From: Nocardioidaceae bacterium
GTDB lineage: Bacteria > Actinomycetota > Actinomycetes > Propionibacteriales > Nocardioidaceae
Direction of reading: 5' to 3'
DNA: 38,868 bases
Assembly (NCBI GenBank): GCA_013696975.1
Contig: JACCXO010000024.1
Span: forward strand, 1 to 38,868
The notes below the pieces were generated by a model, which was not told where the DNA came from, ran no database searches, and saw nothing but the letters and a program-made list of their open reading frames with translations. Both the position numbers and the translations under genes were made by a program. Below, piece by piece: positions 1,395 through 14,429 of this stretch. Every line of letters starts with the position of its first letter. The stretch's first letter is position 1.

Positions 1395-1493
1395 CGCCGG
1401 CCCTCTCAAAATCGCGGTCACACCTATTTAGATGCGGCCTTATCCTAGGGCGAACCAAAGCCGCAGCCACCGTTGGGCGGGTAGGGTCGGCCC

Positions 1494-2252
1494 ATGCGGG
1501 TCGCTTTCGTGGGCAAGGGCGGTGCTGGCAAGTCGTCTCTCGCGGGTACTTTCGCACGTGTGCTGGCGGGCACCGGTGAGCGAGTGCTAGCGCTGGACTC
1601 CGACCCGATGCCGGGCCTGGCCTTCTCTTTGGGGATCGACCGCGTCGACGAAGGTTTGCCGGATGAGACGGTTGAGGAGTACAACGACGACGGCCATCGC
1701 CGATTTCGGCTGAGGCAGGGCCTAACAGGAGTTGGCGCCGTCGAGCGATACGCCGTCCAGGGTCCTGACGGGGTGCACTTCCTTCAACTTGGGAAAGCCC
1801 ACGGTCAGCGGTGGGACAACACTCGCCAGCACTTCGGCTTCCAGCATGTCCTGGACGACCTCCCCGGGGACGGCTGGAGCATCGTCGGGGACCTGCCCGG
1901 GGGAACCAGGCAGCCGTTCATGACCTGGGGGCGGTACGCGGACACGTTCCTCGTTATCGTCGAACCCACCCCCGCCTCATTGCTGACCGGTCGTCGCCTA
2001 GCCCGCTTGGCCGCGACGGCCCAGGCGCCGCGCGTGGTCGTGGTCGCCAACAAGGTCCGGGAATCCGAGGAAGTCGAGCGGGTCGGCGAACGCACCGGGC
2101 TGCGAGTCCTCGGCGCCGTCCCGTTCGACCCCGAACTGGAAACGGCGGATCGGCTAGGCCGGGCCGTGCTCGACCACGACCCTCAAGGTCAGACCGCCAC
2201 GGCGGTACGATCGCTGATGGATGTTCTTCTGACTGGAATGGAGCCCTCATGA
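1494..2252 (+). CDS. CooC/MinD-like P-loop ATPase 1, no CxC motif
   Basis: A 252-residue deviant Walker A ATPase of the ParA/MinD/CooC class: FVGKGGAGKSS at residues 6-15 and LALDSDPMPGL near 33-42. CooC proteins use ATP-driven dimerisation to help load nickel into carbon monoxide dehydrogenase. Where the paralogues in this locus have GCxC followed by D(M/F)EA, this one has no cysteine (LGKAHGQRWDNT at about 99-110) and DLPGGTRQPF. It has therefore lost the usual dimer-interface metal site. It overlaps the next ATPase by ATGA, so the two are probably translated together. A heterodimer with that protein is an inference. Confidence is high for the family and low for the exact role. Confidence 0.85.
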   Translation: MRVAFVGKGGAGKSSLAGTFARVLAGTGERVLALDSDPMPGLAFSLGIDRVDEGLPDETVEEYNDDGHRRFRLRQGLTGVGAVERYAVQGPDGVHFLQLGKAHGQRWDNTRQHFGFQHVLDDLPGDGWSIVGDLPGGTRQPFMTWGRYADTFLVIVEPTPASLLTGRRLARLAATAQAPRVVVVANKVRESEEVERVGERTGLRVLGAVPFDPELETADRLGRAVLDHDPQGQTATAVRSLMDVLLTGMEPS

Positions 2253-2989
2253 AGATCGCTGTCGTTGGCAAGGGTGGATCGGGAAAAACGACCACGTCGG
2301 CCGTTCTGGCTCGTACTTTTGCACGGCAAGGACGGGCGACGTTGGCCCTGGACTGCGACACCAATCCCAACCTCGGCATCTCGCTGGGACTGGGTGAGGA
2401 GGTGACGGAGAGCCTGATCGCGCTGCGCGATGCGGTCGACACCGGCGAGCAGGAACATGCGTCGAGCGCGGACGACCTGGTACGGCGCTTCGGCGTCGAG
2501 GCGCCCGACGGGGTGCATCTGGCGGTCGTCTCCGCGATCCAAAACCCGGAGCCGGGTTGCCCTTGATGCGGTATCTCACCTGAGCAGTTGCTCGGGCAGC
2601 TGGCACGTCCCGGTACCATCGTCGTTGCTGACTTCGAGGCCGGTCTCGGCACCGTCATGCGGCTCGACGGCCGTCCGGTGGACGTCGTCGTCGTGGTCGT
2701 GGAGCCGACCGCGAAGTCACTTGAAGTTGGCCGCCGCGCCGCCGATCTCGTCCGCGAGAGCGGCCTGGGCCGACTGGTCATTTCAGCCAACCGGGTCCGT
2801 GACGAGGACGACGCGGCGCGGGTCGCCGCCGCCTTCCCTGGACTCGACCTGCTCCTTGTGCCGGACGACCCAGCGATCCTCGCGGCCGAGCGAAGCGGCG
2901 TGGCCCCGCTCGACGCTGCACCGGAGGCGCCTGGCGTGCGGGCACTCGTCAGCCTCGCCAAGGGGCTTTTGGGTCCGGCGGGCGCTTGA
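2249..2989 (+). CDS. CooC-like P-loop ATPase 2, candidate selenoprotein (in-frame UGA at codon 106)
   Basis: From the ATG at 2249 the frame encodes a CooC-like ATPase (VVGKGGSGKTTT at 5-16, ALDCDTNPNLG near 34-44). It is interrupted only by TGA at 2564-2566, then continues in the same frame for 140 codons to the stop at 2987-2989. Read through, the protein is 246 residues, the length of its paralogues. The TGA sits in EPGC-P-TGA-CG (Cys104, position 106, Cys107). The paralogues read AGCTCSGH and EGCLCSAH there, and CooC has GCVCPEH. The position of the second metal-binding Cys is thus encoded by UGA. Conserved sequence continues on both sides (VVADFEAGLG, VVVEPTAKSLEVGRR, ISANRVRDEDDA), and a SECIS-like hairpin follows. 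I infer selenocysteine insertion. The alternative is a nonsense mutation Cys to stop. No selA, selB, selD or tRNA-Sec gene is in the window. Confidence 0.8.
2579..2596 (+). promoter_or_regulatory. Candidate bacterial SECIS hairpin
   Basis: Beginning 12 nt after the in-frame TGA, CCTGAGC pairs with GCTCGGG (7 bp, one T-G wobble) around an AGTT loop. Bacterial SECIS elements lie inside the coding region directly after the UGA, have a short apical loop with a G in its first two positions, and sit about 11 nt after the UGA in the E. coli fdhF case. All three properties are met. A 7-bp hairpin in GC-rich DNA can arise by chance, so the strength of the call comes from its position relative to the UGA and the conserved Cys site. 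Confidence 0.65.
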
Positions 2990-3021
2990 CCAGCGGCAAT
3001 CTCAGGCGAGGCCCGCAGTGA

Positions 3022-3054
3022 TCGATAACCTCACGCGTCTGGAAGCTTTATCGA
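3022..3054. repeat. Inverted repeat TCGATAA/TTATCGA between convergent ATPase genes
   Basis: TCGATAA at 3022-3028 and TTATCGA at 3048-3054 are exact inverted copies 19 nt apart in the 68-nt gap between two convergent genes. It could be a weak bidirectional terminator, but there is no T-tract and the spacer is long. Confidence 0.3.
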
Positions 3055-3057
3055 CGA

Positions 3058-3837
3058 CTAGTCTGCGACGGCGAAGTCGACCGCTGCGAGCACGGAGTCC
3101 AGGGCCGCCTGAACCTCCCTCGTCATGGGCGTCATGCCTACCAACCCAGCACGGTCGTCCGCCGCGACTCGCGCGTCGTACGGCAGAACGCCTGCCAACT
3201 CAATGCCCTCGGCCGCCAGTGCGTCTGTGAAGAACTGGACGTCCTCCGGAGTCCGCGCTTTGTTGCCCACCGCAAGTACATGCGGAATGCCCAGCTCGGC
3301 AGCGAGGGCGGATGTCCGTGCGGCCGTCAGGACCGACTTGCGGGTCGGCTCGCAGACGACGACCAGCACGTCAGCGTAGGCAAGCGTGCCGCCTGAGCGG
3401 CTGAGGTGCTCCAGCCCGGCCTCCATGTCGACGAGCGTCACGTCGACCTCGACGAGGGCATCTGCGAGCAGGTTGCGGACTGTTGCATGGCCGCTACAGG
3501 TGCACCCGGCGCCGGCCTCGGTAACCCGGATCGCCGAGAGTAGCGTCGGGCCAGCAGGAGTGGAGCGGCCGTAGTCGCTGACGAGAGCGTCAGCCGACGG
3601 CGCGGGGCCCGAGCCGACGAGGACGGCTCGCGGCAACACTGGCACCGCCTCAGTGTCGGCCAACGACAAGCCGAGTGACAGCCCAAGATTGGGGTTGGAG
3701 TCGGTGTCGATGGCCACGACCCGCTTGCCCCGCTCGCTGTAGGAGCGCGCGAGCAAGCCTGAGACGGTGGTCTTTCCCACGCCGCCCTTGCCGACGACGC
3801 CAAGCTTCAAGCCGACCGACAATGCAGCGGTGCTCAT
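3058..3837 (-). CDS. CooC-like P-loop ATPase 3 (GCTC motif)
   Basis: A 259-residue protein starting MSTAALSVG at the ATG at 3837, with GGAG 8 nt upstream. The Walker A is VVGKGGVGKTTVS (14-26), followed by AIDTDSNPNLGLSLGL (42-57). The CooC metal site is intact: AGAGCTCSGHATV with Cys112 and Cys114, then VDMEAGLEHLSR. This is the closest of the four to authentic CooC, the ATP-dependent nickel-insertion factor of CO dehydrogenase. No CO dehydrogenase gene is present here, so within this locus its target may be the hydrogenase or an Fe-S/Ni insertion step. It is convergent with ATPase 2 and divergent from the small membrane-protein operon at 3941, with a 103-nt gap that must hold both promoters. 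Confidence 0.88.
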   Translation of the reverse strand: MSTAALSVGLKLGVVGKGGVGKTTVSGLLARSYSERGKRVVAIDTDSNPNLGLSLGLSLADTEAVPVLPRAVLVGSGPAPSADALVSDYGRSTPAGPTLLSAIRVTEAGAGCTCSGHATVRNLLADALVEVDVTLVDMEAGLEHLSRSGGTLAYADVLVVVCEPTRKSVLTAARTSALAAELGIPHVLAVGNKARTPEDVQFFTDALAAEGIELAGVLPYDARVAADDRAGLVGMTPMTREVQAALDSVLAAVDFAVAD

Positions 3838-3940
3838 GCCTGCTCCTTCATGGGTTGCGTACGATGGTACTAGCGTGGAGCACCTACCGGGGGCACACTG
3901 TCTCATACGCCGTCGAACCTCGACATGGATGGAGTCGCAG

Positions 3941-4198
3941 ATGGTTATTCTCTGGACCGCTAGCGCCATAGGGCTACTCGTCGTTGCCCCGCTCGTGATC
4001 ATGTTGGCAACCTATGTGATCCGGCCGGCGTTGGAGTGCGCGCGCTACGCCGACGACATCCTCGAGCACGGTGTCGGGATCACCGCCGCATTGGAACCGG
4101 TGCCTGCGCTCGTGACGACGCGCGACCTCGTCGCCGAGGTGACCCAGAATGCCGTTTCCTACGTGGGCGCTCTCCGGCGCCTTGTCGCCCACTCATAG
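3941..4198 (+). CDS. Small one-helix membrane protein, set A1
   Basis: An 85-residue protein: an N-terminal hydrophobic helix (about residues 5-27), then a soluble tail beginning RPALECARYADDIL. The start ATG at 3941 has GGAG 8 nt upstream, and an in-frame ATG at 3929 lacks one. The tail resembles the first small membrane protein of the second set at 12014, with similar placing of an A-x-x-IL motif and a later V-x-T segment, although identity is low. It opens a run with the next three genes. A role as membrane anchor or hydrogenase accessory subunit is inferred from context only; I do not recognise a named family. Confidence 0.7.
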   Translation: MVILWTASAIGLLVVAPLVIMLATYVIRPALECARYADDILEHGVGITAALEPVPALVTTRDLVAEVTQNAVSYVGALRRLVAHS

Positions 4199-4237
4199 CG
4201 TCGAAGTCCTAGCACAAAACACTAAAAGGGAGCGCAC

Positions 4238-4504
4238 TTGTCCGCAGCCGCCATCACCGCAATCGTCGTGACAGGTGTGCTTGTCGCCGCCTTAGCCTTT
4301 TACCTCATTTGGGTCGTGATCATCCTCCGCCGCCTCACCGACACGTTGGGCAAGGTCGTGTTCGGGGTCGGCTCCATCGCCCATCGCGTGCAGCCGATCG
4401 GCCCGCTGGTCGATGAGATCAATGGCGATCTTGGCGGCGTCGCCGATGCGTTGGAGGCGCTCGGACAGGACCTCGATGGGCAGCAGCAGGCCCGCGCATC
4501 ATGA
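4238..4504 (+). CDS. Small one-helix membrane protein, set A2
   Basis: An 88-residue protein from a TTG start at 4238 with AAGGGAG seven nt upstream. One hydrophobic helix (about 5-28) is followed by an amphipathic tail. The segment LRRLTDTLGKVVFGVGSI...IGPLVDEIN.DLGGVADAL matches the protein at 12558 (LRR...LGKVAFGVRAI...IGPSVLSIN.QLTGVAAAL). The two are clear paralogues within the same hydrogenase locus. It overlaps the following DUF1059 gene by ATGA. The function is not known; a membrane-tethering or electron-relay scaffold role for hydrogenase is inferred from conservation in both clusters. It contains no cysteines or histidine pairs suggesting a redox centre. Confidence 0.78.
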   Translation: MSAAAITAIVVTGVLVAALAFYLIWVVIILRRLTDTLGKVVFGVGSIAHRVQPIGPLVDEINGDLGGVADALEALGQDLDGQQQARAS

Positions 4505-4707
4505 CCTCCCGTGGTAGTGACAATGCTGTGCGTCTCGAGTTCCGCTGTCAGGACGTCGGTGTCGCGTGCAAGCAGATCACCCAGGCTGAGACTGCTGACG
4601 ACCTGGTCAAGGCAGTGGCGGCGCACACCAGGGCCGAGCACGGTGTCGAGTTGAACGCAACCCTGATCGACTATGCCCTCACCAAGGTCCGCCCTACCGG
4701 TGGCTGA
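4501..4707 (+). CDS. DUF1059 family small protein
   Basis: A 68-residue protein with the DUF1059 layout: a short beta segment with a conserved pair of cysteines (FRCQDVGVACKQ), an ETADDLV helix and the terminal AVAAHTRAEHG segment. DUF1059 proteins are small cytoplasmic proteins of unknown function, common in actinobacteria and archaea. The CxxxxxxC and the histidines could bind a metal, but that is speculation. It overlaps its upstream neighbour by 4 nt and its downstream neighbour by about 8 nt, so it belongs to the same operon. Confidence 0.8.
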   Translation: MTSRGSDNAVRLEFRCQDVGVACKQITQAETADDLVKAVAAHTRAEHGVELNATLIDYALTKVRPTGG

Positions 4708-5275
4708 GCGTTACGCGACGTCCGATGTTGACCCCATCGACGAGTCAACCGACGCTTCACTCGCCGAGCTCGGCCCCTTGTTGGACCGGCTCGAGGAGAT
4801 CTTAGGCGAGGTCGAGGACCTCGATGAGAGCGTCCGCGACACCGTTTTCGAGCTTCTCGACGGGGTGGACGCGCTGCACCGGCTGGCGATCACGCGCCTC
4901 TCGGAGGTCGTCGGTGACGTCGAGCCGCTGCGCCGGGCGGACCCCGCTGTGGCCTGGCTGCTGGAGGCATACGGCGTTGGGGTGGACGACTCTGCTGCCG
5001 CATCGGCTGCGCTCGATCAGATCCGCCCCTACCTGCACGAGCATGGCGGCGAGGTCGAGGTGCTGAGCGTCGAGCACGGAGTGGTACGGGTCCAGCTCAC
5101 GGGTGCCTGCTCCGGGTGTACCGCAGCCGCGGTGACGCTGCGGGACGGCGTGGAGGAGGCGCTGCGCGAAGGGCTGCCCGGGTTCGTCGCGATGGACGTC
5201 GCCCCCGACGGCGGTGCGCCAGCCCATCCGCCGCCGACCCAGGTGCTGCTCCAGATCACGCCCCGGCCGGTCTGA
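4700..5275 (+). CDS. NifU C-terminal-domain Fe-S scaffold protein
   Basis: The C-terminal half is a NifU-like domain: LDQIRPYLHEHGGEVEVLSVEHG, then GACSGCTAAAVTLRDGVEEAL, with the CxxC that holds a transferable [4Fe-4S] cluster. The N-terminal 100 residues are helical and acidic (LLDRLEEILGEVEDLDESV). Such scaffolds are often found with high-affinity actinobacterial hydrogenases, where they probably feed clusters to the small subunit. I use the GTG at 4700, which overlaps the DUF1059 stop by 8 nt. An ATG at 4673 is in frame but has no ribosome site and would overlap by 35 nt. Its 3' end is convergent with the protease gene (16 nt apart). Confidence 0.87.
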   Translation: MAERYATSDVDPIDESTDASLAELGPLLDRLEEILGEVEDLDESVRDTVFELLDGVDALHRLAITRLSEVVGDVEPLRRADPAVAWLLEAYGVGVDDSAAASAALDQIRPYLHEHGGEVEVLSVEHGVVRVQLTGACSGCTAAAVTLRDGVEEALREGLPGFVAMDVAPDGGAPAHPPPTQVLLQITPRPV

Positions 5276-5291
5276 CCTGCCGATGGCGCAG

Positions 5292-5789
5292 TCAGGTCGC
5301 GGGATCGGCGTGGTCGGCGAGCAGGCGGCGTATCTCCCGAACGGCCACCGGGACTGCCCTGCTCGTCGTCTCCGACAGGCCCTCGCGGGGCTCTTGGGTG
5401 TCAGTCGTCTGAACACCGACGATGAGCGTCGTCTCGGGCAGCACACCCAGGCCGAGGGCCATCATCAATGCGCGAGCAGGAGTTGCGAGGTGCATGTCGG
5501 CCAACTCATCGCGGCGCCGATCGGCGCTGAGCGTCGACACGTCGAGCACGTCGGGCCGCTGCACCAGGACCGCACCGGCTGGACGGCCAAGGTCGACGGC
5601 GTCGACGATCAACAGTATTTTCACGCCACCCGCAAGCAGCTCCTGTACAAGTCTGATCCCTCCGATACCGATCTCGAGCACCCGGGTGCCTGCGGGCAGT
5701 GGCTCGGCCAGCAGTTGCTCGGCGATGACGACGCCGACGCCGTCGTCCGCGCGCAGGACGTTGCCAAAGCAGGCCACGAGCACGGTCAT
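5292..5789 (-). CDS. [NiFe]-hydrogenase maturation endopeptidase (HyaD/HybD family)
   Basis: A 165-residue protein beginning MTVLVACFGNVLRADDGVGV, the family opening. The later IVDAVDLGRPAG and DMHLATPARAL carry the Asp and His that, with the early acidic residue, bind the nickel of the precursor. The enzyme removes the C-terminal tail of the large subunit after nickel insertion. The ATG at 5789 is chosen because homology starts there; upstream codons are unlike the family. It is divergent from the TPR gene with only 19 nt between starts. Its substrate is presumably the large subunit at 8612-10513, the only one in the window. Contrast it with the altered homologue at 7843-8595. Confidence 0.92.
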   Translation of the reverse strand: MTVLVACFGNVLRADDGVGVVIAEQLLAEPLPAGTRVLEIGIGGIRLVQELLAGGVKILLIVDAVDLGRPAGAVLVQRPDVLDVSTLSADRRRDELADMHLATPARALMMALGLGVLPETTLIVGVQTTDTQEPREGLSETTSRAVPVAVREIRRLLADHADPAT

Positions 5790-5808
5790 GGAGGAAGGGT
5801 AGGTCTCG

Positions 5809-7065
5809 GTGTCCGCCGATGAGCAGGAGGGCGCCAGCGTTACCGATGAGGCCACAGCCGCGCTCGAGACCCGACTGGCCAAGCATCCGCCCGGTCGCTA
5901 CCCCGCCCAGCACGCAACGGCAGCCTTCCACCTTGGTACGACGCACCTGCAGCGGGGTCGGGTCGCAGAGGCTCTGCAGGTCCTCCGTGCCGCAGTCGAG
6001 ATCTTCGGGCAGCTGGGGATGCGCCTGGAAGAAGCGAAGGCGCTGACGATGCAGGGAGTCGCCTTCCGCGAAGCCGGGCGCATCGAACTGGCCCGGCAGG
6101 AATTCGAGCGTGCGGCCTCCGCCTTCCATGAGCTGGAACAACCAGTCGAGGAAGCGGCCGCGTCATACGATCTCGGACTTGTGCTTTGGGAACAGGGGGA
6201 TGCAGCCGAGGCACAGGATGCGATGCGGCGTGCCGGTGAGCTGTTCCTGCGGGCCGGTTACCTCGCGCAGGCCGGATCCGCGGCCCGTGAACAGGGCACA
6301 GCCCTGCTCACGTCGGGTGAGGCGGGGTCCGCACTGCCATTACTGCGTGAGGCGGCCAGCCTGGCGGAACGTGCCGGCGACCTGCCGGGCCTGGGCGCTG
6401 CCGCTAACGCCCTCGGTCTGGCACATCTGGCCTCCGACGACAGCGCAGCTGCGGTAGTGGCACTTTCCCGCGCTGTCGGCGCCTTTCCCCGCAGCATGCG
6501 TCCCGCCGAGCACGCGATGGCCAAGTCCAACCTTGCGGTCGCGCATGAGCAGGCCGGCAACCAGGCTCGAGCCCGGCTTACGGCTCGCCAGGCATTGGCA
6601 TTGCCGGGCGCCGACCCACAGGTACACGCGCAGGCGCAGCAGTTGCTGGACCGGTTGTCAGGCGCGACGCAGGGCGATCTGCATATAGTCCTAGATGCGG
6701 AGCCGCGGGAGCGCTGGCCGGCGATCGTGCGTGAGGAGGCCGTGCGTTGGTGCGAGGCGAGTGCAGCCGAGCGATCGCAGGCCGTCTGTGGCTTCGTGGA
6801 TGGACTGCTGAATCGGCCAGCGGCGTCGTACGATCTGGCCGAAAGTCTGCTCGCAGTGCTACTCGAGCTGCCACCAGAGCCCTACGGCGAGCTGGTGACA
6901 GCGATCGTGCAAGCCACCGGAGGGCGAGCCGAAGAAGACAGCGAGCGAGTCCGGACCGTCGTCGGGTCGGCCATGGCTCGGTTCGCGATCCCTCAATGGC
7001 AGCGGCTCGCGAGCAGCCTCAACAGCGCTGCCAACGCGGCGGGACAGCCGGAGGGCTGGCGATGA
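5809..7065 (+). CDS. TPR-repeat protein of the hydrogenase locus
   Basis: 418 residues from a GTG at 5809. Residues about 40-290 are tandem tetratricopeptide-type helix pairs, for example ARQEFERAASAFHEL, AASYDLGLVLWEQGDAAEAQDAM and ALPLLREAASLAERAGDLPG. There is no signal peptide or membrane helix. The C-terminal 120 residues are a separate helical domain rich in E and R. TPR proteins are protein-protein adaptors, and one accompanies several high-affinity hydrogenase operons, so an assembly-platform role is likely but inferred. It overlaps the next gene by ATGA and is divergent from the protease. Confidence 0.8.
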   Translation: MSADEQEGASVTDEATAALETRLAKHPPGRYPAQHATAAFHLGTTHLQRGRVAEALQVLRAAVEIFGQLGMRLEEAKALTMQGVAFREAGRIELARQEFERAASAFHELEQPVEEAAASYDLGLVLWEQGDAAEAQDAMRRAGELFLRAGYLAQAGSAAREQGTALLTSGEAGSALPLLREAASLAERAGDLPGLGAAANALGLAHLASDDSAAAVVALSRAVGAFPRSMRPAEHAMAKSNLAVAHEQAGNQARARLTARQALALPGADPQVHAQAQQLLDRLSGATQGDLHIVLDAEPRERWPAIVREEAVRWCEASAAERSQAVCGFVDGLLNRPAASYDLAESLLAVLLELPPEPYGELVTAIVQATGGRAEEDSERVRTVVGSAMARFAIPQWQRLASSLNSAANAAGQPEGWR

Positions 7066-7832
7066 ACGGAGACCTTGGGGTTACGGAGGTATCGGCGGCG
7101 CTCGGAGACCGTCCAGTACGTGCGTACCTGGCGTTGCTGTCGACCGAAGCCGAGGCGATGGCGTGGGCTCGCACCGGAGCAGCCACCGGGGCGTTGGTGG
7201 TTGCGGACTACCAGGCTTCGCCGCGGGGACGCGGTGGTCTGCCGTGGACCGTACAGCCCGGTCGGGGACTCGGCTTCTCGCTGTTGGCGCGACCCGCCCT
7301 TCCCCCAGAACGCGAGGGATGGCCCTACGTTGCGGCGTCGCTCGCAGTCGCCGAGGTGATCGGTGACCACGCCGCGCTCGACTGGCCCGACACCGTGGTT
7401 GCGCCGGAGGGCGAGCCCGCGCTCGCGCGGCTGGGTTGCTACGTCGAGCTCGGCCCGGACCGAACCGACTGGGCGACCATCACCGTCCTCGTCGTGGACG
7501 CAGCGCCGCCGCGCGCCGCGCTGCTCCGTCAGCTCGTGGACGCGCTGGAGAACCGGCTCGACGCTGCGGCCGACACGGTGCTGTCGGTTTACCGTTCCCG
7601 CTGCATCACGCTCGGCCGTCAGGTGCGAGCTCGGATGATCCCGATGGGGTCCGGAGGTCACGAGATCAACGGCGAGGCCGTCGACGTGCTCGCCGACGGC
7701 GCACTGGTCGTGCTCACCGCCCAAGGAAACCGGGTGGCCGTTCCCCCACAGAACCTCGGGTTGCTCGAGGCGCCAACGGCACCGCCCGAACTACCCCGAG
7801 ACATCCGGAGGCGGCTCGAAGACCTGCATTAG
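7062..7832 (+). CDS. Biotin/lipoate-ligase-fold protein, active site altered
   Basis: A 256-residue protein. Residues 47-76 (VADYQASPRGRGGLPW ... GRGLGFSLLARP) match the biotin protein ligase core, where a GRGR-x-G-R-x-W loop binds biotinyl-AMP. The KWPND motif, whose Lys is catalytic in BirA, is DWPDTVV here (about 107-113), so the Lys is absent. The C-terminal part (GEAVDVLADGALVVLTAQGNRVAV) resembles the small SH3-like domain of BirA. There is no HTH. It may be a ligase for another substrate or a non-catalytic binder working with the TPR partner that overlaps it by 4 nt. The family call is good; a biotin ligase function is doubtful. Confidence 0.75.
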   Translation: MNGDLGVTEVSAALGDRPVRAYLALLSTEAEAMAWARTGAATGALVVADYQASPRGRGGLPWTVQPGRGLGFSLLARPALPPEREGWPYVAASLAVAEVIGDHAALDWPDTVVAPEGEPALARLGCYVELGPDRTDWATITVLVVDAAPPRAALLRQLVDALENRLDAAADTVLSVYRSRCITLGRQVRARMIPMGSGGHEINGEAVDVLADGALVVLTAQGNRVAVPPQNLGLLEAPTAPPELPRDIRRRLEDLH

Positions 7833-7842
7833 CGTGACGCCG

Positions 7843-8595
7843 TCAGCCTGGGACCGCCTCTACCGCCTGCAACCGGTCCAGCTCCTCGATCAAGCCCCAC
7901 CACAGCGCCCAGTCCCGATGATCCATCCCCTCGCTGCTCACGTCGCTGGCGATACGACTGCGCAGCCGATCACGGAAGGTGAAGGTTCGACCCCACCGCC
8001 CCTCCCGGTCCAGGTGCGACAGCTCGCCGAGTAGCTGGCACATGGCGGCCCGCGAAGTCGACGGCTGTAAGCGATCCCCCCCGACGAGCGGGCCGAGGTC
8101 GTTGACCAGACGCAACAACGGCGCCCGACGCAGCTCTGTGCGGACGAGGTCCAGGGCCACCCCGAGGCCAGCCTGCGCTGACTCAGTCAGCCCCTCGCCT
8201 GAGCTCGTCTTTTCCGGCTCTACCTCCACTGCGATCGTCCGACGCGGAAGCGCACCGAGGCCTGTCGCCACATCGACGATGAGGTCCAGATGGACATAAC
8301 CGGTGACGGCGTCCCCTACGGCAGCTTGCAGTTGCGGTGCGGTCAGCTGCGGTGGGTCGATACGTCGGCGCTCCACAGTGCCGGGGCGGCGGTCTCGTCG
8401 TACGGCACTGATGAGCACCAGCGTGTCGGGCCGGACATCCTGCAGCCGCTGGACCACGGCCACGGCGCCGTAGTGCAGCTCTTCTACGAGGACGTCTCTG
8501 CCGAGATCTTCAGGCTGCAGGCGCTCGATGGCGAGCCGACCGAGATCGAGGTCACTTTGAAAAAGCTCGCTGACGCCGCCCACCAAGACCGTCAT
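7843..8595 (-). CDS. Hydrogenase-maturation-protease-like protein with altered metal site
   Basis: 250 residues from the ATG at 8595, 16 nt after the large-subunit stop, so it is the third gene of the structural operon. The first about 160 residues follow the HyaD/HybD fold: MTVLVGG, then DTLVLISAVRRDRRPGTV and VHLDLIVDVATGLGALPRRTIAVEVEP. Relative to the canonical protease at 5292-5789, GN is GG, the DD-G-V-G segment becomes SDLDLG, and the Asp of VDAVD is Ser (ISAVR), while the His may remain. The 90-residue C-terminal extension is Trp- and Arg-rich and unique. It may be a pseudo-protease used as a chaperone or a structural partner of the large subunit. This is inference. Confidence 0.75.
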   Translation of the reverse strand: MTVLVGGVSELFQSDLDLGRLAIERLQPEDLGRDVLVEELHYGAVAVVQRLQDVRPDTLVLISAVRRDRRPGTVERRRIDPPQLTAPQLQAAVGDAVTGYVHLDLIVDVATGLGALPRRTIAVEVEPEKTSSGEGLTESAQAGLGVALDLVRTELRRAPLLRLVNDLGPLVGGDRLQPSTSRAAMCQLLGELSHLDREGRWGRTFTFRDRLRSRIASDVSSEGMDHRDWALWWGLIEELDRLQAVEAVPG

Positions 8596-8611
8596 TTGAC
8601 GCCTCGGCGGG

Positions 8612-10513
8612 TCAGTCGCCGCCACATGAGCAGGTGTTGACCTCGCGGGTGACCTCGCCGTCGCCGGTGTGCGCGTGCGTCGTGCATGGCATGCAGGGGT
8701 CGAAGCTGCGGATGGCCCGCAGCATGTCGATGCTGGTGAACTTCGCCGGGTCGGACAGATCTTCAATAATGGGGGTGTTCATCACGGCCTCCTCGTACGG
8801 GCCCGGCTGGCCCCACGGATCGCGGGGAGAGGCGTTGATCGTCGAGGGGGTGACGATCTGATAGTTCGTGATCTTGCCCTTGTCCATGACGAGGTGGTGC
8901 GTGAGCCAGCCGCGACCGGCTCCCCACCAGCCGACGCTGCGACGCTCATCTTGCGGGATCGCCTTCTCGATTTCCGTGGGTGTGAGAGTCGCGACCCGTC
9001 GCTCACCTTGTTGGAACAGCTTGTAGGCCTCGAACAGGCTCTCCAGGCCGACTAGCTGGCTGAACAGGTAGTGGTAGGCGCGACCCCGGTTGCGTTCGAA
9101 GGCGTTCCAACGCTCGGGCACGCGCCACTCGACCTCACGTTCGCCGATCTCCCCTTTGGGAATCAGGAAACGCATGCCGGACCCGTCGGCGGAGATGAAT
9201 TCGCTGGTCGGCATCTTCTGAGCTTTCGCCGTCATCAGCAGCCGTGAATAACAGCCAGCCTCGACGACCTGCCGGTCCCACCTCGGTGCGGTCGCCCAGG
9301 TGTATTTTTCCTTCCAGTCACGACTGCCGGGCTTTGGCAGGGTTCGCTTGTTCCAAGGGTGGTACGGCGAGATGGGGTTGCCGAGAGGATCGTTCGGATA
9401 GCGGCTCGTCTTCGACTCCTCGTAGTAGGAGTGCTCGATGAACTCCTCGAGGCCGATGTTCAAATCGGTGAGGCGAGTCGTGACAAGCTCCCCGTCCAAG
9501 ACAACTCCGGGCGTCGACCAGCGCTTCTCTCCCCAGGCGTTGCAGTTCTCATAGGTGGCGTCATAGGCGTAGGGGTCGTCCCAGTAGCCGGGGTCGATGT
9601 GGCTCGACGGCCGGTAGCCGACGAACTGGTAGCGCTCGTCGGCTTCGTAGAAGAAGGCGGGGATGTCGTCCCACACGGCCATCATCCGTTGGGCGTAGTC
9701 GAAGATTTGCCCCAGGCGGGAGTGGTACTCGTTGAGCGTCTGCAGGGTGAGTGTCGTAGAAACACCGCCGGGCACGACGTTTTGGGGGTGCGGGTACTTC
9801 CCCGTCAAGATCACCACCATCTCCCGCGACAGGCGGGTGAAATCCAATCCCTCACGGTAGAGGGCTCCCGTCAGCGGGTTGAGTGCCGTCATCAGGTCAG
9901 CCATGGTCTTGAAGCCATGAATGTGCTCACTCGGGCACTTCCACTGCTCGGCCTTCGGCCAAAGCTCGGGGTTGGAGGACTTGATGACCGATTCGGAGTA
10001 GTCCGGCCCCGCGAGCAGGTAGAGGTGCAAGGGGTTGTCGTAGCCCATCTCTGCGGCCTCGGTCATGTTCCGTACGACGGTGCCTAGCGGCGGTGGCTTG
10101 ATACCCATGGCTTGCTCGATGGCGTACGCCGCGCAGTGCGCGTGGACGCCTCCGCAGACGCCGCAAGCCCGCGACGAGACGAAGATGGCGTCGCGCGGGT
10201 CCCGACCCATGAGGATGACCTCGTAGCCGCGAAACAGCGTCGCCTGGGAGTGCGAGTCGAGGTAGGCCCCCTTTTCGAGGTCGGCGGTCACATGGACCGC
10301 GAGCGCGCCCGCAATGCGGGTCACCGGGTCCATGTTGAGGTCCTTGATGTGGCCGTTGCGGGCCACCAGCCGCTCGATTCGAGCGGTGCGTTCATCCTCG
10401 GTCATCCCGATGTCGGGCATCGCGACGGTGACGTCGTACGGGTTGGGGATGCCCCCGCGAAGGTTGGCGTTGCCTTGGGCGTCGAACTCGACCGGAAGGG
10501 TCTTGAAGCACAT
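8612..10513 (-). CDS. [NiFe]-hydrogenase large (catalytic) subunit
   Basis: 633 residues. The N-terminal Ni-Fe ligand motif is RACGVCGGVH (Cys117, Cys120) and the C-terminal motif DPCMPCTTH (Cys607, Cys610, His613), so all four cysteine ligands are Cys, not Sec. A 20-residue tail ending CSCGGD would be cleaved after His613 by the maturation protease. The layout (RGYEVILMGRDPRDA; HGFKTMADLMTALNPLTG) is most like group 1h and allied actinobacterial uptake hydrogenases, not the group 2a Huc type. Subgroup placement needs a tree. GAGGAG lies 8 nt before the ATG. It catalyses H2 oxidation with the adjacent small subunit, probably feeding electrons to the respiratory chain. Confidence 0.95.
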   Translation of the reverse strand: MCFKTLPVEFDAQGNANLRGGIPNPYDVTVAMPDIGMTEDERTARIERLVARNGHIKDLNMDPVTRIAGALAVHVTADLEKGAYLDSHSQATLFRGYEVILMGRDPRDAIFVSSRACGVCGGVHAHCAAYAIEQAMGIKPPPLGTVVRNMTEAAEMGYDNPLHLYLLAGPDYSESVIKSSNPELWPKAEQWKCPSEHIHGFKTMADLMTALNPLTGALYREGLDFTRLSREMVVILTGKYPHPQNVVPGGVSTTLTLQTLNEYHSRLGQIFDYAQRMMAVWDDIPAFFYEADERYQFVGYRPSSHIDPGYWDDPYAYDATYENCNAWGEKRWSTPGVVLDGELVTTRLTDLNIGLEEFIEHSYYEESKTSRYPNDPLGNPISPYHPWNKRTLPKPGSRDWKEKYTWATAPRWDRQVVEAGCYSRLLMTAKAQKMPTSEFISADGSGMRFLIPKGEIGEREVEWRVPERWNAFERNRGRAYHYLFSQLVGLESLFEAYKLFQQGERRVATLTPTEIEKAIPQDERRSVGWWGAGRGWLTHHLVMDKGKITNYQIVTPSTINASPRDPWGQPGPYEEAVMNTPIIEDLSDPAKFTSIDMLRAIRSFDPCMPCTTHAHTGDGEVTREVNTCSCGGD

Positions 10514-10535
10514 TGCGAATACTCCTCAGGTCAGG

Positions 10536-11900
10536 TCAGACGTTGGCACGGTCGCCGCGTGGGCTACCGCCGCTGGGACTCTCATCCGGCCGCTTACCCC
10601 AGACATCGGCGTCATGGCGGGCGGTGTCTCCGTGGCGACGGAGACGGTCGTAGAACTTGTGACCGACGTTGGACAGCCCGGACGGCTCGCTCCTTTCGCG
10701 TGAGTAGGCGCTGGGCGTCGCGCCCTGCTTGTCCCATCGCACCTCACGGTTGAGGTTGTTGTTGCTGAACTTGCGCAGCGGCCGGATCACGCTGCCGACC
10801 ATCCGCGAGACCGTCGTCGATGCCAGCGAGCCCGGTGGGCGGGAGTAGAACGGCGTGAACTTGTCAGGGAAGCCGGGCATGGTGCAGCCGATGCAGGCGC
10901 CGCCTGCGTTCATGCAGCCGCCGAGGCCCGCGATCGCGCCACGCGACGTGATGTTGCAGTTGACGACCGGCCCCCAGCAGCCGATCTCGACGAGGCACTC
11001 CGGGTCGCCGAACTCTTCGGCGAACGTTCCCTCCTCGTAGTAGGCCCCACGTACGCACCGACGGTGCACTGTCTCCCCGAACAACCACGCGGGACGGCCG
11101 AGCTCGTCGAACTCCGGCAGTGGACCGAAACCCTGCAGGAAGTACAGGACCGCCGCAACGGTCTCGGTGAAGTTGTCGCCGATCGGCGGGCAGCCGGGGA
11201 CGTTGACGACCGGCACACCGAGCACCGAGCGGTAATCCTTGCCGAGGAAGTCCATCAGGCTCATCGCACCTGTGGGGTTGCCCTCCGCCGAGGGAATGCC
11301 GCCCCACGTCGCGCACGTCCCAATGGCGATCATCGCTGCCGCGTTCGGGGCGAGCCTGGCTATCCACTCCGTCGAGCTGACCGGGCGTAGCTCACCGTCA
11401 GGACCCCACGGCTCCTCACCCGTCGACGACCAATAGCCACCCTGAAGGTGGGCGATCGTCTCGTCGGCGATCGAACCCTCGAGGATCACGACGTATGGCG
11501 CGTCCAACTTGCCGGCGACTGCCTGCTCGGCCGGCTGAAGATAGTACGGCCCGGACTCCATATTGATGACAGGGTGATGCAGAACCACCCGCGGCACCCC
11601 CGGGTGCGCCCCGAGCATCAGACTCTCCACCGAAGGAAGCGTCGCGCCGGTCACCGCCACGCTGCAGCCGTCGCAGCTCATCCCAGCGAACCAGAATGCG
11701 TGCACCTTCTCGAGCGGGCCGAAGCGCGTCGCACCGGTGGCGGTAGCTACCGGCGACAGCATGTCCTCGGTCATCGCGCCCGACGGCATCCCGAAGGCGC
11801 CCAGATGCGAGGTGTCGTGATATGTGTCGACCGGACCCAGCAGGCTGAGCAGCTGCTGCGCCGGGGTTTGTCGCTGCGACGTGCTCTGTCGATCGGCCAT
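10536..11900 (-). CDS. [NiFe]-hydrogenase small (Fe-S) subunit
   Basis: 454 residues from the ATG at 11900 (AGGAG upstream). The three-cluster ligand set is complete: MSCDGCSV (Cys76, Cys79), GTCATWGG and PGCPPIGDN for the proximal cluster; ETVHRRC, PEC and IGCWGP for the distal; and VVNC, GGCMNAGGACIGC for the medial and nearby cysteines. Group 1h proteins carry Asp in the first motif (LSCDGDSV), whereas this has Cys, so it is related to but distinct from 1h. There is no twin-arginine signal at the N-terminus, so the enzyme should face the cytoplasm. The C-terminal tail after IGC is long, basic and low in hydrophobic residues. It is 22 nt upstream of the large subunit. Confidence 0.94.
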   Translation of the reverse strand: MADRQSTSQRQTPAQQLLSLLGPVDTYHDTSHLGAFGMPSGAMTEDMLSPVATATGATRFGPLEKVHAFWFAGMSCDGCSVAVTGATLPSVESLMLGAHPGVPRVVLHHPVINMESGPYYLQPAEQAVAGKLDAPYVVILEGSIADETIAHLQGGYWSSTGEEPWGPDGELRPVSSTEWIARLAPNAAAMIAIGTCATWGGIPSAEGNPTGAMSLMDFLGKDYRSVLGVPVVNVPGCPPIGDNFTETVAAVLYFLQGFGPLPEFDELGRPAWLFGETVHRRCVRGAYYEEGTFAEEFGDPECLVEIGCWGPVVNCNITSRGAIAGLGGCMNAGGACIGCTMPGFPDKFTPFYSRPPGSLASTTVSRMVGSVIRPLRKFSNNNLNREVRWDKQGATPSAYSRERSEPSGLSNVGHKFYDRLRRHGDTARHDADVWGKRPDESPSGGSPRGDRANV

Positions 11901-11931
11901 CTGAACTCCTGTGGCATAATCCAAACACTTC

Positions 11932-11948
11932 TGTATGTGCACCATACA
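11932..11948. promoter_or_regulatory. Inverted repeat in the hydrogenase divergent control region
   Basis: TGTATG-TGCAC-CATACA is a perfect 6-bp inverted repeat with a 5-nt centre in the 113-nt gap between the small subunit (minus) and the operon at 12014 (plus). On the reverse strand it reads TGTATGGTGCACA, and a related direct copy TGTACGGTGCGGA occurs at 11967-11979. It fits an operator for a dimeric regulator such as the PadR encoded at 13234. This is inferred from position only. Confidence 0.45.
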
Positions 11949-12013
11949 CATAGCATCGAATCCAGGTGTACGGTGCGGACTGGAGCTCAGCACACACACA
12001 TCTTGGAGGGCCA

Positions 12014-12265
12014 GTGAACGGCTGGATACTCGGCTACCTGATCGGATTGACCCTCGTCGCCGTCGTCGTCATCGTCCTGGTCCTGATGATCGTGGGGGCC
12101 AGGCACACCGCCGAGAAGGCCGAGGCAATTCTCGGCGGCTTGAACGACGCCCGCGACGGCACAGCCCCGCTTTGGGAGCTCCGTCCCACCGTGATGACGG
12201 CGGAGCGCATTGTTGCCGCCGCGGCGGCAGCCCGGACCAGTCTCACCCCGGGAGACTCTGCATGA
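12014..12265 (+). CDS. Small one-helix membrane protein, set B1
   Basis: 83 residues from a GTG at 12014, GGAGG six nt upstream. A long hydrophobic helix (about 4-27, WILGYLIGLTLVAVVVIVLV) precedes a tail with HTAEKAEAILGGL and VMTAERIVAAAAAA. It is the first gene of the operon divergent from the structural hydrogenase genes and a likely counterpart of set A1 at 3941. It overlaps the next gene by ATGA. No enzymatic motif is seen; a membrane-tethering role for the signal-peptide-less hydrogenase is a reasonable inference. Confidence 0.72.
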   Translation: MNGWILGYLIGLTLVAVVVIVLVLMIVGARHTAEKAEAILGGLNDARDGTAPLWELRPTVMTAERIVAAAAAARTSLTPGDSA

Positions 12266-12561
12266 GCGACAACGGATACTGGTTCGTGGCACTCGGTCTC
12301 GGACTTGTCGTGGCGATCGTGGCCGTGGTACTGCTCGAGGTCTTCCTTCGACAGGTGTATCGGATCGAGCGCGGGGCCGGTCTGGTGTGGACCGCCGGCA
12401 AACAGGTCGCCGGAAACACCGCGACGACCTGGTTACTCGGTGAGACCTCCGACCGGCTGACAAAGCTCACCGATGAGGCCGGCCTGCACGCGCAGCTCCT
12501 GAGTCCTCAGCCTGCGCCGCAGCAGCGGGTACACCGCGTCGTGCAGGCGGATCCACAATGA
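12262..12561 (+). CDS. Small one-helix membrane protein, set B middle
   Basis: 99 residues. An N-terminal helix (about 7-28, VALGLGLVVAIVAVVLLEVFL) is followed by a cytoplasmic tail LRQVYRIERGAGLVWTAGKQVAGNTATTWLLGETSDRL. It has 4-nt overlaps with both neighbours. Unlike its neighbours it has no counterpart in set A near 3941-4504. I do not recognise a family; the amphipathic tail might contact the hydrogenase or quinone-side partners. Confidence 0.72.
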   Translation: MSDNGYWFVALGLGLVVAIVAVVLLEVFLRQVYRIERGAGLVWTAGKQVAGNTATTWLLGETSDRLTKLTDEAGLHAQLLSPQPAPQQRVHRVVQADPQ

Positions 12562-12845
12562 CTGCTCTGCTGATTACGCTCACCCTCCTCGAGGTCGTCC
12601 TCGTCGCCGCCGTGCTGGTGTACTACCTCCTTCGCATCGCCGCCTCGTTGCGGCGTACGGCTGTGCTGCTCGGCAAGGTGGCCTTCGGCGTGCGGGCGAT
12701 CGAGACCCAGTGCTCATCGATCGGTCCCTCGGTGCTGAGCATCAACGACCAACTGACGGGCGTCGCAGCAGCCCTTTGCGATCTCACCCAGCTGGCGGAC
12801 CCCCAAGCGCCCCGTGGCGGTTCCACCGCTGTGGGAAGTCGATGA
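12558..12845 (+). CDS. Small one-helix membrane protein, set B2
   Basis: 95 residues. The helix at about 3-27 (LLITLTLLEVVLVAAVLVYYLL) is followed by the conserved tail LRRTAVLLGKVAFGVRAIETQCSSIGP, then INDQLTGVAAALCDLTQ. It is a clear paralogue of set A2 at 4238 (shared LRR-x4-LGKV-x-FGV, IGP-x-V and GVA-x-AL). The tail is amphipathic, a pattern reminiscent of DUF948-type membrane proteins but not proven to belong to that family. It overlaps the following winged-helix-like gene by 4 nt. Confidence 0.77.
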   Translation: MTALLITLTLLEVVLVAAVLVYYLLRIAASLRRTAVLLGKVAFGVRAIETQCSSIGPSVLSINDQLTGVAAALCDLTQLADPQAPRGGSTAVGSR

Positions 12846-13237
12846 CCATGGACGAGCTGCACCCGCCCAAGTCGGAGGCGCTGCGCACCCTGTACTGGCG
12901 CAGCGAGATTCTGCAGGTCATGTACTGGCTGAAGGGCGAGGGACTCGGCGACGTCGTCGACGCCCCGCTGCTCGAGCGCTTCCTGGGCGTGGAGGCTCAG
13001 CTCGGGGTTGGCTATCTCGACCGGCTGGTGCTCGACGGCTACCTTGAGCTGTCCGACGGCGGCTACGTGCTTTCTGAGGTCGGGCTGGCAGAGGGCAAGA
13101 CGGAGTTCGCGCTCAGTTTCGCTGACCTGACCCGCCCCGCCCACGGCGAGTGCAGCGCTGACTGCTGGTGCCACAACTCCGTTGCCGAGGCCCTCGCCTG
13201 CGCCGCTGAACGTGCTCATCCGGGGGCTCGCGGATGA
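12842..13237 (+). CDS. Winged-helix-like protein with C-terminal Cys/His motif
   Basis: 131 residues. The N-terminal and central part (LRTLYWRSEILQVMYWLKGEGLGDVV ... LERFLGVEAQLGVGYLDRLVLDGYLEL) looks like a winged helix-turn-helix. The C-terminus contains HGECSADCWCHNS, a CxxxCxCH cluster suited to binding a metal or Fe-S cluster. It sits between the membrane proteins and the padR gene with 4-nt overlaps on both sides. It may be a metal- or redox-sensing regulator or a hydrogenase cluster-assembly factor. I do not recognise a named family. Confidence 0.72.
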   Translation: MTMDELHPPKSEALRTLYWRSEILQVMYWLKGEGLGDVVDAPLLERFLGVEAQLGVGYLDRLVLDGYLELSDGGYVLSEVGLAEGKTEFALSFADLTRPAHGECSADCWCHNSVAEALACAAERAHPGARG

Positions 13238-13608
13238 GCACCAACCCCGTCGAGGAGTTCTCGGTCGGGATGCCACGCAACTACCTCCGGCCGTGTCTGC
13301 TGCTCCTACTGGCTGAGGGGACGTCTCACGGTTACGAGCTGCTCGACCAAGTCACCGCGCTGGGTTTGGACCGGGCGGACCCGGGGAGCCTCTACCGCTG
13401 CCTGCGAGCGATGGACGAGGAAGCCCTGGTCCACTCGTTCTGGGAGCCGTCCACCTCTGGTCCGGCCCGCCGTACCTATGCGTTGACCGACGAAGGACGA
13501 GAGTGGCTGCACGCTATCGCCGGGTCACTGGCGGAGGTTTCCCGCGCACTCGATGCTTACCACCGGCGCTATCAGAAGCTTGTCGAGCAGGATGAGCACG
13601 CCCGGTGA
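13234..13608 (+). CDS. PadR-family transcriptional regulator
   Basis: 124 residues. The winged-helix core LLLLAEGTSHGYELLDQV, DPGSLYRCLRAMDEEALV and RRTYALTDEGREWL is the PadR signature. A C-terminal helix (SRALDAYHRRYQKLVEQ) should make the dimer. PadR proteins usually repress a neighbouring operon until a small molecule binds, and here the likely target is the control region at 11901-12013. It has 4-nt overlaps with both flanking genes, so it would be autoregulated as part of the hydrogenase accessory operon. Confidence 0.88.
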   Translation: MSTNPVEEFSVGMPRNYLRPCLLLLLAEGTSHGYELLDQVTALGLDRADPGSLYRCLRAMDEEALVHSFWEPSTSGPARRTYALTDEGREWLHAIAGSLAEVSRALDAYHRRYQKLVEQDEHAR

Positions 13609-14429
13609 GGCTAGCCGTCGCGGGGAAGGGCGGTGCGGGCAAGACGACGATCAGCGCCACGTTCGCCCGGCTGGCCGCTCGTGCGGGGAACCCCGTCGTC
13701 GCGATTGACGCCGACGCCAACCCGAACCTGTCCACCGCGCTGGGTGTCCCGCCTGCAGTCGCCACGCGCCTCGGACCCGTGCCGCCGTCGCTGATCTCAC
13801 GTCGTCTCGGGGGTACGGGACTCACTGAACCTATCGACGCGGTGTTGGACCGTTATGCGCTCAGCGCGCCCGACGGTATCCGGCTGCTCGGGATGGGAGC
13901 ACCCGCCCACGCTGACGAGGGCTGTCTTTGTTCCGCACACGCGGTCGTGGCCTCGCTACTCGAGGATCTGGGCGGGGAGGACGACCGGCTGGTCATCGTT
14001 GACATGGAGGCCTCCCCCGAGCACTTCAGCCGTGGAACGGTCCGGCACGTCGACACCGTCTGTCTCGTCGCCGAGCCCTACTACCGCTCGCTCGAAACCG
14101 TCTGGCGCATGGGCGCGCTCGTCGCGGAGCTACCTGTCGGCCGAGTCGTCGTGGTCGCCAACAAGGTGCGCTCGGCGGAAGACCAGGAGGCCATCACGGA
14201 ATTCTGTGACCGTCATGCCTTCGAGCTCGCGGGGAGCGTCCCGTGGAGTGAGGAGGTGGTCGCCGCCGACCGGCAACGCGTCCCCCTGGTTGACTGGCCC
14301 GGCGCCACGCCCGTCGTCGCAGCTGTCGCGGAGCTGGTCGCCGTGCTCGCCGCCGCAGGCCCACTCCGGCAGGCCCACGCAGCCTCTAACAAGGCGAGCA
14401 CTGGCCCCACTTGCCAATCGCCGCGCTGA
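13605..14429 (+). CDS. CooC-like P-loop ATPase 4 (GCLC motif)
   Basis: 274 residues from a GTG at 13605 overlapping the padR stop. The Walker A is AVAGKGGAGKTTIS (4-17), then AIDADANPNLSTALG (33-47). The metal site is ADEGCLCSAHAVV with Cys107 and Cys109, followed by VDMEASPEHFSRG. It is a canonical CooC-type dimer-interface CxC protein, so probably a metallochaperone ATPase. The last 20 residues are an Ala/Ser/Thr-rich tail absent in the other three. It is the last gene of the plus-strand accessory operon beginning at 12014. Nickel or Fe-S delivery to hydrogenase is inferred. Confidence 0.88.
   Translation: MRLAVAGKGGAGKTTISATFARLAARAGNPVVAIDADANPNLSTALGVPPAVATRLGPVPPSLISRRLGGTGLTEPIDAVLDRYALSAPDGIRLLGMGAPAHADEGCLCSAHAVVASLLEDLGGEDDRLVIVDMEASPEHFSRGTVRHVDTVCLVAEPYYRSLETVWRMGALVAELPVGRVVVVANKVRSAEDQEAITEFCDRHAFELAGSVPWSEEVVAADRQRVPLVDWPGATPVVAAVAELVAVLAAAGPLRQAHAASNKASTGPTCQSPR

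Follow-up and report, generated by a model that had tools for sequence, protein, structure and literature searches.

The [NiFe]-hydrogenase locus of a Nocardioidaceae bacterium (GenBank assembly GCA_013696975.1, contig JACCXO010000024.1) encodes four ATPases resembling the nickel ATPase CooC, here called ATP1 to ATP4, of which ATP2 is, with near certainty on comparative grounds, a selenoprotein carrying selenocysteine (Sec, U) at its likely metal site. Judging from gene content and conservation, these ATPases on balance probably form a CooC-type nickel route that is independent of HypA and HypB, uses the Sec metal site and serves this hydrogenase. The window, meaning the whole stretch of 38,868 nucleotides (nt) that was analysed, comes from a metagenome-type genome (G000; 1.88 Mb, 150 contigs, 82.5% complete), where it is contig C31. 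Labels of the form G### denote sampled genomes and L### sampled loci of this analysis, L016 being the sel locus of the window's own genome. The features that carry the argument, including a hairpin resembling a selenocysteine insertion sequence (SECIS), are the following.

1494..2252, plus strand: ATP1, cysteine-free CooC-like ATPase with a 4-nt overlap with ATP2 (Pfam CbiA best match; ATP1 clade)
2249..2989, plus strand: ATP2, CooC-like ATPase, near-certain selenoprotein, C104-P-U106-C107-G (Pfam CbiA best match; clade; codons of relatives)
2564..2566, plus strand: in-frame TGA read as Sec, U106 of ATP2 (TGA, TAG, TGC or TGT of relatives matched to the tRNA-Sec anticodon)
2579..2596, plus strand: SECIS-like hairpin CCTGAGC-AGTT-GCTCGGG, beginning 12 nt past the TGA (pairing across Sec forms)
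3058..3837, minus strand: ATP3, CooC-like ATPase, C-T-C motif (Pfam CbiA best match; ATP3 clade)
13605..14429, plus strand: ATP4, CooC-like ATPase, C-L-C motif, U-L-C in other lineages (Pfam CbiA best match; clade)

Selenocysteine in ATP2 and ATP4

In ATP2 of the window, a TGA stands at codon 106 within C-P-U-C-G. Fifteen genomes of the contig search have a readable ATP2 (the window and 14 loci), and their codons at this site fall into four forms: a single TGA in three (the window, L023 and L039), two TGAs giving U-P-U-C or U-T-U-C in three (L026, L031 and L036), TAG in four (L018, L020, L021 and L022, which are Modestobacter, Geodermatophilus and two Blastococcus), and the cysteine codons TGT or TGC in five (L019, L025, L028, L030 and L035). 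In L019, frame changes or N interrupt both ATP2 and ATP4, and these two genes were used in part. Across the relatives, 20 Sec genes stand against nine Cys genes, the stop-type codon always lying at the motif codon or codons, and the ATP2 tree requires a minimum of four changes between Sec and Cys (29 rows representing 28 genes, as one G568 gene occupies two rows; L107 left out). An order-wide search for relatives of ATP2 returned the window's own genome only (1/196).

The tRNA complement follows the codon. Among 26 genomes searched with RF01852, 16 have a tRNA-Sec match of at least 65 bits and ten have nothing above 51 bits; the gathering score of 47 is passed by 17, the additional one being a tRNA-Ser according to ARAGORN. 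The anticodon is UCA in all six TGA-form genomes and CUA in all four TAG-form genomes, which are exactly the four of the Geodermatophilaceae. ARAGORN labels these four CUA tRNAs as tRNA-Pyl, by anticodon, and RF01852 scores them at 65-67 bits. Mukai et al. 2016 is said to be the key study on UAG as a Sec codon. Geodermatophilaceae carry tRNA-Sec(CUA) and read UAG as Sec, as described in the sections of PMC5330540 consulted here. Of the Cys-form genomes, four of five have no detected tRNA-Sec, an absence that in a metagenome-assembled genome (MAG) can be a gap, and L030 has one. In the window's own genome, selD, tRNA-Sec, selA and selB lie in a row (L016), with the three proteins scoring above NCBIfam cut-offs.

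ATP4 has C-x-C in the clade of the window and U-x-C, encoded with TGA, in 16 rows of other loci; the tree places one of these 16, L144 with U-A-C, next to the ATP3 clade. On comparative evidence, the assignment of Sec to ATP2, and to ATP4 in other lineages, could hardly be firmer. Gene callers that end an ORF at UGA or UAG split ATP2, so that annotations probably show it as broken. The preliminary description of this DNA, made from the letters and open reading frames (ORFs), had no more than implied Sec, the central point here, by writing the ATP2 motif as CPUC.

A SECIS-like hairpin

Nineteen Sec forms of ATP2 contain CC[CT]GAGC-AGTT-GCTCGGG or a near variant, with its onset 12 nt past the codon. 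Across 20 Sec sequences, 97.9% of the 140 cells of the stem are paired, and the addition of the twentieth sequence brought one stem pair flipped from C-G to G-C. The leucine codon within the hairpin is TTG in 19/19 Sec forms compared with one of nine Cys rows (eight distinct genes, one G568 gene being present twice), and TTG occupies 15/428 of the other leucine positions of the Sec-form genes; these codon contrasts were assessed by Fisher tests uncorrected for kinship. The Cys forms do not keep the hairpin sequence, although a weaker hairpin can still form at this place in two of them (L028 and L030). One group of ATP4 Sec forms (11 of the 16 rows, ten distinct) has a different hairpin at a similar distance, 100% paired, with a switch between C-G and U-A in five of the ten and covariation matched by 0/500 shuffles.

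Family membership and paralogy of the ATPases

The ORFs of all four ATPases were confirmed, as were the motifs that the preliminary description had assigned to them (no Cys, CPUC, CTC and CLC), with ATP3 placed at 3058-3837; the start given for it in the ORF list, 4002, probably lies too far upstream. ATP1 contains no cysteine at all. Pfam CbiA is the top match for all four, and the deviant Walker A motif with its signature lysine, G7-K8-G9-G10-x-G12-K13, is invariant across them in the alignment, in agreement with the common P-loop described before. In the same alignment, ATP2 to ATP4 are 29-35% identical to ATP1. The earlier statement that the four differ exactly at the metal motif went too far, since they diverge along their entire length. 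A profile of the four, searched against the window's own genome, recovers these four and then weaker, mostly partial matches of at most 38.1 bits; they are the sole strong family members found in this genome, which is 82.5% complete.

By sequence, the closest solved relative is CooC1 (3kje), with E=1.8e-36 for the profile of the four, for which it is the lone solved structure with E <1e-15, and 7.7e-24 for the ATP2 profile, which gives CooC 87.8 bits and the runner-up among solved families 51.3. The cysteine motif aligns to the C-x-C of CooC1 (Cys112/Cys114), a pair present in ATP3 and ATP4 and replaced by C-P-U-C in ATP2. ATP1 lacks C-x-C, and no Cys occupies the metal site in 26 of the 27 ATP1 rows that cover it (28 rows in all, with L106 starting past the site). 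In the parts of PMC6006190 used here, Cys112 and Cys114 of CooC1 bind metal at the dimer interface. No NCBIfam model exceeds its cut-off for the ATPases, MrpORP being far below its own, and PADLOC yields weak matches only. The predicted model of ATP2 has a mean predicted local distance difference test (pLDDT) score of 90.4; as modelled, the fold by itself does not tell the function of the ATPase.

A quick tree built from 118 rows gives one clade each for ATP1, ATP2 and ATP3 (Shimodaira-Hasegawa-like approximate likelihood ratio test, SH-aLRT, 100, 99 and 100), and CooC proteins of carbon monoxide dehydrogenase (CODH) clusters are set apart (SH-aLRT 100). The ATP4 rows need three changes on this tree (two stray paralogues, one long-branched). 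Omitted from it were rows shorter than 190 residues, L106, L107, L162 and L166, the CODH rows L146-L149, and motif-less ATP4-class rows except L165. Since the genes go with a [NiFe]-hydrogenase rather than with Ni-CODH, and CODH-linked CooC is separate, the proteins are named CooC-like or CooC-type and not CooC. At L165 (G426), two ORFs near the start of the contig comprise another divergent paralogue, which has a CLCCG motif, and next to it a partial ATPase at a contig end.

The 4-nt overlap between the ATP1 and ATP2 genes, pointed out earlier as a hint of a heterodimer, is present and widely kept: of 24 gene pairs, 20 overlap by exactly 4 nt and two more by 1 nt, the exceptions being gaps of 7 nt (L110) and 857 nt (L026), in a count that omits the non-adjacent pair of L115. 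Because ATP1 is free of cysteine and its gene overlaps that of ATP2, ATP1 is probably the dimer partner of ATP2.

Hydrogenase type and conservation of the locus

The other genes of the locus, which extends from hypC to ATP4, are listed here.

1104..1394, minus strand: HypC, MCLGMPG... (Pfam HupF_HypC 1.3e-17)
3941..4198, plus strand: sm1, small protein with a hydrophobic stretch (conserved in the locus; membrane nature by eye)
4238..4504, plus strand: sm2, small protein with a hydrophobic stretch (conserved in the locus; membrane nature by eye)
4673..5275, plus strand: iron-sulfur (Fe-S) protein with Nfu/NifU C-terminal domain (Pfam NifU 6.6e-22)
5292..5789, minus strand: HycI/HybD-type hydrogenase maturation protease (Pfam HycI 6.7e-08; TIGR00072 over cut-off)
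5809..7065, plus strand: TPR protein (Pfam TPR families)
7062..7832, plus strand: BirA (biotin ligase)-like protein (TIGR00121 1.8e-14, 53.9 bits, below the cut-off of 83.1; no Pfam match; conserved)
7843..8595, minus strand: conserved protein adjoining the large subunit, protease-like by eye (no Pfam match)
8612..10513, minus strand: [NiFe]-hydrogenase large subunit (Pfam NiFeSe_Hases 1.9e-74; nearest solved structure 5aa5 HofG)
10536..11999, minus strand: [NiFe]-hydrogenase small subunit, start uncertain, adjoining the large subunit (Pfam NiFe_hyd_SSU_C, Oxidored_q6)
12014..12265, plus strand: sm3, small protein with a hydrophobic stretch (conserved)
12262..12561, plus strand: sm4, small protein with a hydrophobic stretch (conserved)
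12558..12845, plus strand: sm5, small protein with a hydrophobic stretch (conserved)
12848..13237, plus strand: conserved protein with a CSADCWC stretch (no Pfam match)
13234..13608, plus strand: PadR/PhaQ-like regulator (TIGR02719 2.7e-24, below cut-off)

The protein with the CSADCWCH stretch (12848-13237) sits by the PadR-type regulator and ATP4 and may be a metal sensor. A HypD at the left edge of the window was considered and rejected, as an ATP-binding cassette (ABC) sugar-binding protein, recognised by eye, lies beyond HypC. No tandem repeats were found within positions 1-15000.

The large subunit is 38-42% identical to canonical-1h-type sequences, among them those of 16 same-class genomes, mostly 53-58% identical to a sister group, and at least 69% identical within its own group. 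Gene content and the adjacent small (S) and large (L) subunit genes fit group 1m as described in PMC9561532, with no DUF1059 gene seen. In the sister locus L160, genes for small hydrophobic proteins lie between the S and L genes, which is a group 1l feature in the sections of PMC9561532 at hand; there, too, 5aa5 HofG is the nearest solved large subunit.

Among 25 loci found by the large subunit, ATP4 occurs in 20, ATP2 in 14, ATP1 in 13 and ATP3 in 12; the complete set is seen in 11. Five have no ATPase at all, four of them on contigs shorter than 7.5 kb, L024 (18 kb) being the exception within its flanks. ATP3 was not seen in the flanks of L026, L027, L029, L031 and L032, and some genomes show ATP4 alone. 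A wider search covered 396 Actinomycetota genomes. A large subunit with at least 53% identity to that of the window occurs in 21 of them, of which 19 contain a family member and 12 contain ATP2, the two without any being G446 and G493. None of the 32 genomes with only the canonical-1h type has an ATPase family match at E <= 1e-30. The co-occurrence with the hydrogenase that had been proposed as a check holds in most of these genomes for the family, but not every locus or genome shows all four ATPases. In G586 and G436, hydrogenase genes lie on the same contig as ATP2, and G256 has an ATP4-type match without a large subunit at the cut-off.

Weaker paralogues, one per genome (107-135 bits, no internal stop), account for 63 of the 85 genomes with a family match. 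The surroundings of four were inspected: L147 and L149 lie in clusters of CODH and acetyl-CoA synthase (ACS) according to Pfam, L146 likewise by eye, and L148 is undecided. The possibility raised at the outset, that these ATPases mostly accompany CODH, was not borne out in that form, the CODH-cluster paralogues seen forming a separate clade.

A Sec-containing hydrogenase was considered and rejected: '1 TGA' was reported in the large subunits of G568, G601 and G351, and in G568 and G601, the two inspected, it is the normal stop right past C-x-x-C-A-T-H. A second large subunit in G568 (L141, 6450-8117) and the matching L143 gene of G601 end directly at this motif and lack a C-terminal tail that a protease could remove.

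Distribution of HypA and HypB

HypA and HypB are the usual nickel inserters of [NiFe]-hydrogenases. Both were sought in 21 plus 54 genome handles, representing 72 distinct genomes once those present twice with identical coordinates (G224=G318, G234=G440 and G235=G492) were counted once; cut-offs differed between searches (1e-25 and 1e-30 for HypB, 1e-120 and 1e-90 for the large subunit). Where only the hydrogenase type of the window or its sister was detected (32 genomes), HypB was found in two (G449 and G493) and HypA in four (G235, G449, G493 and, partially, G226), compared with 24 and 30 of the 32 genomes with only the canonical-1h type. The six genomes with both types have HypB in four and HypA in six (partial in G377), and in G216 and G230 no more than a few kb separate hypA/hypB from the canonical-1h gene. 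The contrast between types gives Fisher p values of 2e-8 for HypB and 2e-11 for HypA in genomes that are related to one another. Neither protein was found in the window's own genome, 82.5% complete, nor in G436 and G586, which have no large-subunit match at the cut-off. In the genomes of three named strains, Geodermatophilus chilensis, Blastococcus saxobsidens and Blastococcus mobilis, neither HypA nor HypB was found and all four ATPases are present. As the usual nickel helpers are mostly missing, the ATPases probably load nickel instead.

The canonical-1h genomes with neither HypB nor an ATPase match are G252, G281, G296, G307, G323, G517, G530 and G556, of which six have HypA. HypD (TIGR00075, E <= 1e-30) was not found in nine of the 21 contig-set genomes, namely G000, G216 (L018), G217 (L019), G219 (L021), G221 (L023), G223 (L025), G226 (L028), G233 (L035) and G235 (L037), among which Modestobacter sp. 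DSM 44400 and Blastococcus saxobsidens are named strains; HypC is seen in eight of the nine loci. ABC transporter genes lie within the locus in L019 (12977-16426; Pfam SBP_bac_5 and BPD_transp_1) and L030 (14214-17742; by eye). They comprise a family 5 binding protein and two permeases, a transporter class that imports nickel or peptides, and may encode a nickel importer.

Alternative explanations and contrary evidence

A distinctly less likely explanation is a role of the ATPases as Fe-S cluster carriers or ATP-driven reductases for the hydrogenase, in the manner of Mrp/Nbp35 or NifH/BchL, with nickel arriving by another route. The Nfu-type protein in the same locus would fit it, as would the equally good match of the ATP2 model to NifH/BchL structures and to CooC, and the D-L-P-G-G that ATP1 has where the other ATPases have D-x-E-A; the C-P-x-C-G motif of ATP2 also resembles the Mrp/Nbp35 cluster motif. 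However, CooC outranks the other solved families by sequence, the cysteine motif lies at the CooC site, and nickel insertion would be left without a known agent where HypA and HypB are mostly missing. That the ATPases are accessory, acting in metal storage, sensing or regulation while nickel enters the hydrogenase without a dedicated inserter, seems improbable: co-occurrence across many actinobacterial lineages, conserved paralogues and the retention of costly Sec point to a dedicated function, against which stand the PadR-type regulator and the Cys-containing small protein beside ATP4, together with the eight of 32 canonical-1h genomes that lack HypB. The chance that TGA or TAG marks a truncation or an assembly error, making ATP2 a pseudogene or two proteins, is next to negligible. 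Any single MAG could hold an error, but the stop-type codon recurs at the same site in 20 distinct Sec-form genes with the frame intact after it and the hairpin conserved, and it matches the tRNA-Sec anticodon in all ten genomes where this was read; pseudogene and sequencing error were rejected accordingly.

Several observations weigh against the nickel route or parts of its support. HypA and HypB occur together in two genomes without a detected canonical-1h copy (G449 and G493). Eight of the 32 canonical-1h-type genomes lack HypB and these ATPases alike, so that loss of HypB alone is not specific; the earlier suggestion that a set of CooC paralogues implies a different nickel route gains from the rarity of HypA and HypB beside this hydrogenase type and loses by these eight. 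Many genomes are incomplete MAGs and, being related, do not give independent counts; the searches scored at most three candidates per genome for the large subunit and at most seven for the ATPase family, and second copies may be missed. According to the portion of a review at hand, R. rubrum matures its Coo hydrogenase without the involvement of CooC. Foldseek and VIA score the ATP2 model about equally against MinD, NifH/BchL and CooC folds (VIA Z 20-23 throughout), and the absence of Mrp-type and other families from the VIA list does not exclude them. L029 and L032 have UGA in ATP4 and no detected tRNA-Sec, and five 1l-like ATP4 Sec forms (L116 and L118-L121) do not have the ATP4 hairpin. The folding energy of the window stretch alone is not unusual (z -0.55 to -1.38), for which reason the hairpin was judged by comparison, and covariation in the ATP2 stem is weak (44/500 shuffles as high) because the stem hardly varies.

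Proposed mechanism

Under the favoured explanation of nickel delivery by CooC-type ATPases, the locus would encode a group 1m-type [NiFe]-hydrogenase with its own metal delivery in place of HypA and HypB. ATP3 and ATP4 would offer a C-x-C pair where CooC1 has Cys112 and Cys114, and ATP2 would present Sec within C-P-U-C-G at the same site, with ATP1 as its Cys-free dimer partner; a division of labour among the paralogues is suggested. By analogy with CooC, the metal, presumably nickel, would be held at the dimer interface by thiolate or selenolate ligands and released when ATP binding rearranges the dimer. It would then be handed to the large subunit, which the HycI-type protease would cleave afterwards. 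Selenium may bind nickel more tightly or make the binding more tolerant of oxidation, and lineages that lack the Sec machinery use Cys. The chances seem about even that this amounts to a full nickel-delivery pathway for aerobic high-affinity [NiFe]-hydrogenases, independent of HypA and HypB and with nickel presented by an ATP1-ATP2 heterodimer at the selenolate-containing C-P-U-C site, and to the first family of Sec metallochaperone ATPases, kept through the switch from UGA to UAG.

The locus supplies candidate genes for loading a hydrogenase without HypA and HypB. If a P-loop ATPase does use Sec to bind its metal, the 21st amino acid would have an unusual role there, one that lies outside redox catalysis. 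According to the sections of PMC9561532 available, hydrogenases of this type are inferred to have high affinity and to use trace atmospheric H2 in cold-desert soils.

Comparison with known systems

As far as the literature was searched, Sec in ATP2, the separate clades of ATP1 to ATP3 and the rarity of HypA and HypB appear to be new. No Sec-containing CooC-type ATPase is named in the titles or abstract openings retrieved from the open-licence literature, supplements aside, and the table of the top 20 selenoproteins in PMC5029168, a part of that source whose longer supplementary list lies outside the scope, contains no MinD/CooC-type ATPase. The UAG-Sec code of the Geodermatophilaceae (PMC5330540) shares tRNA-Sec(CUA) and UAG as Sec with the TAG forms of ATP2; the selenoproteins named in its consulted sections are formate dehydrogenase (FDH), a UGSC-motif protein and AhpC, a CooC-like ATPase not being among them.

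The group 1m cluster of Ray et al. 2022 (PMC9561532, in part) shares with this locus the HybD peptidase, an Fe-S assembly protein, a CooC-type ATPase, TPR and BirA homologues, small membrane proteins and adjacent S and L genes. Since the gene content matches, a CooC-type ATPase in such a cluster is already in print; section 6 of that paper mentions one, without mention of four paralogues, Sec or missing HypA and HypB, and 'hypB' is absent from the main text, supplements being outside the scope.

The Fe-S carriers Mrp, ApbC and Nbp35 are MinD-family ATPases with a C-P-x-C-G-like cluster motif. That of ATP2 is similar, but its position agrees with CooC. With HypA and HypB, which are mostly absent here, the ATPases would share the expected role of bringing nickel to the large subunit, HypB being a G3E GTPase according to an excerpt of PMC9164220. 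With CooC1 of Carboxydothermus hydrogenoformans (3kje/3kjg/3kjh/3kji), the nickel ATPase for CODH, they have in common the Walker A motif GKGGxGKT, the MinD-type fold and the C-x-C position; they differ in having a [NiFe]-hydrogenase as partner instead of CODH, in comprising several paralogues, one of them Cys-free and one or two with Sec, and in forming a clade separate from the sampled actinobacterial CODH CooC proteins.

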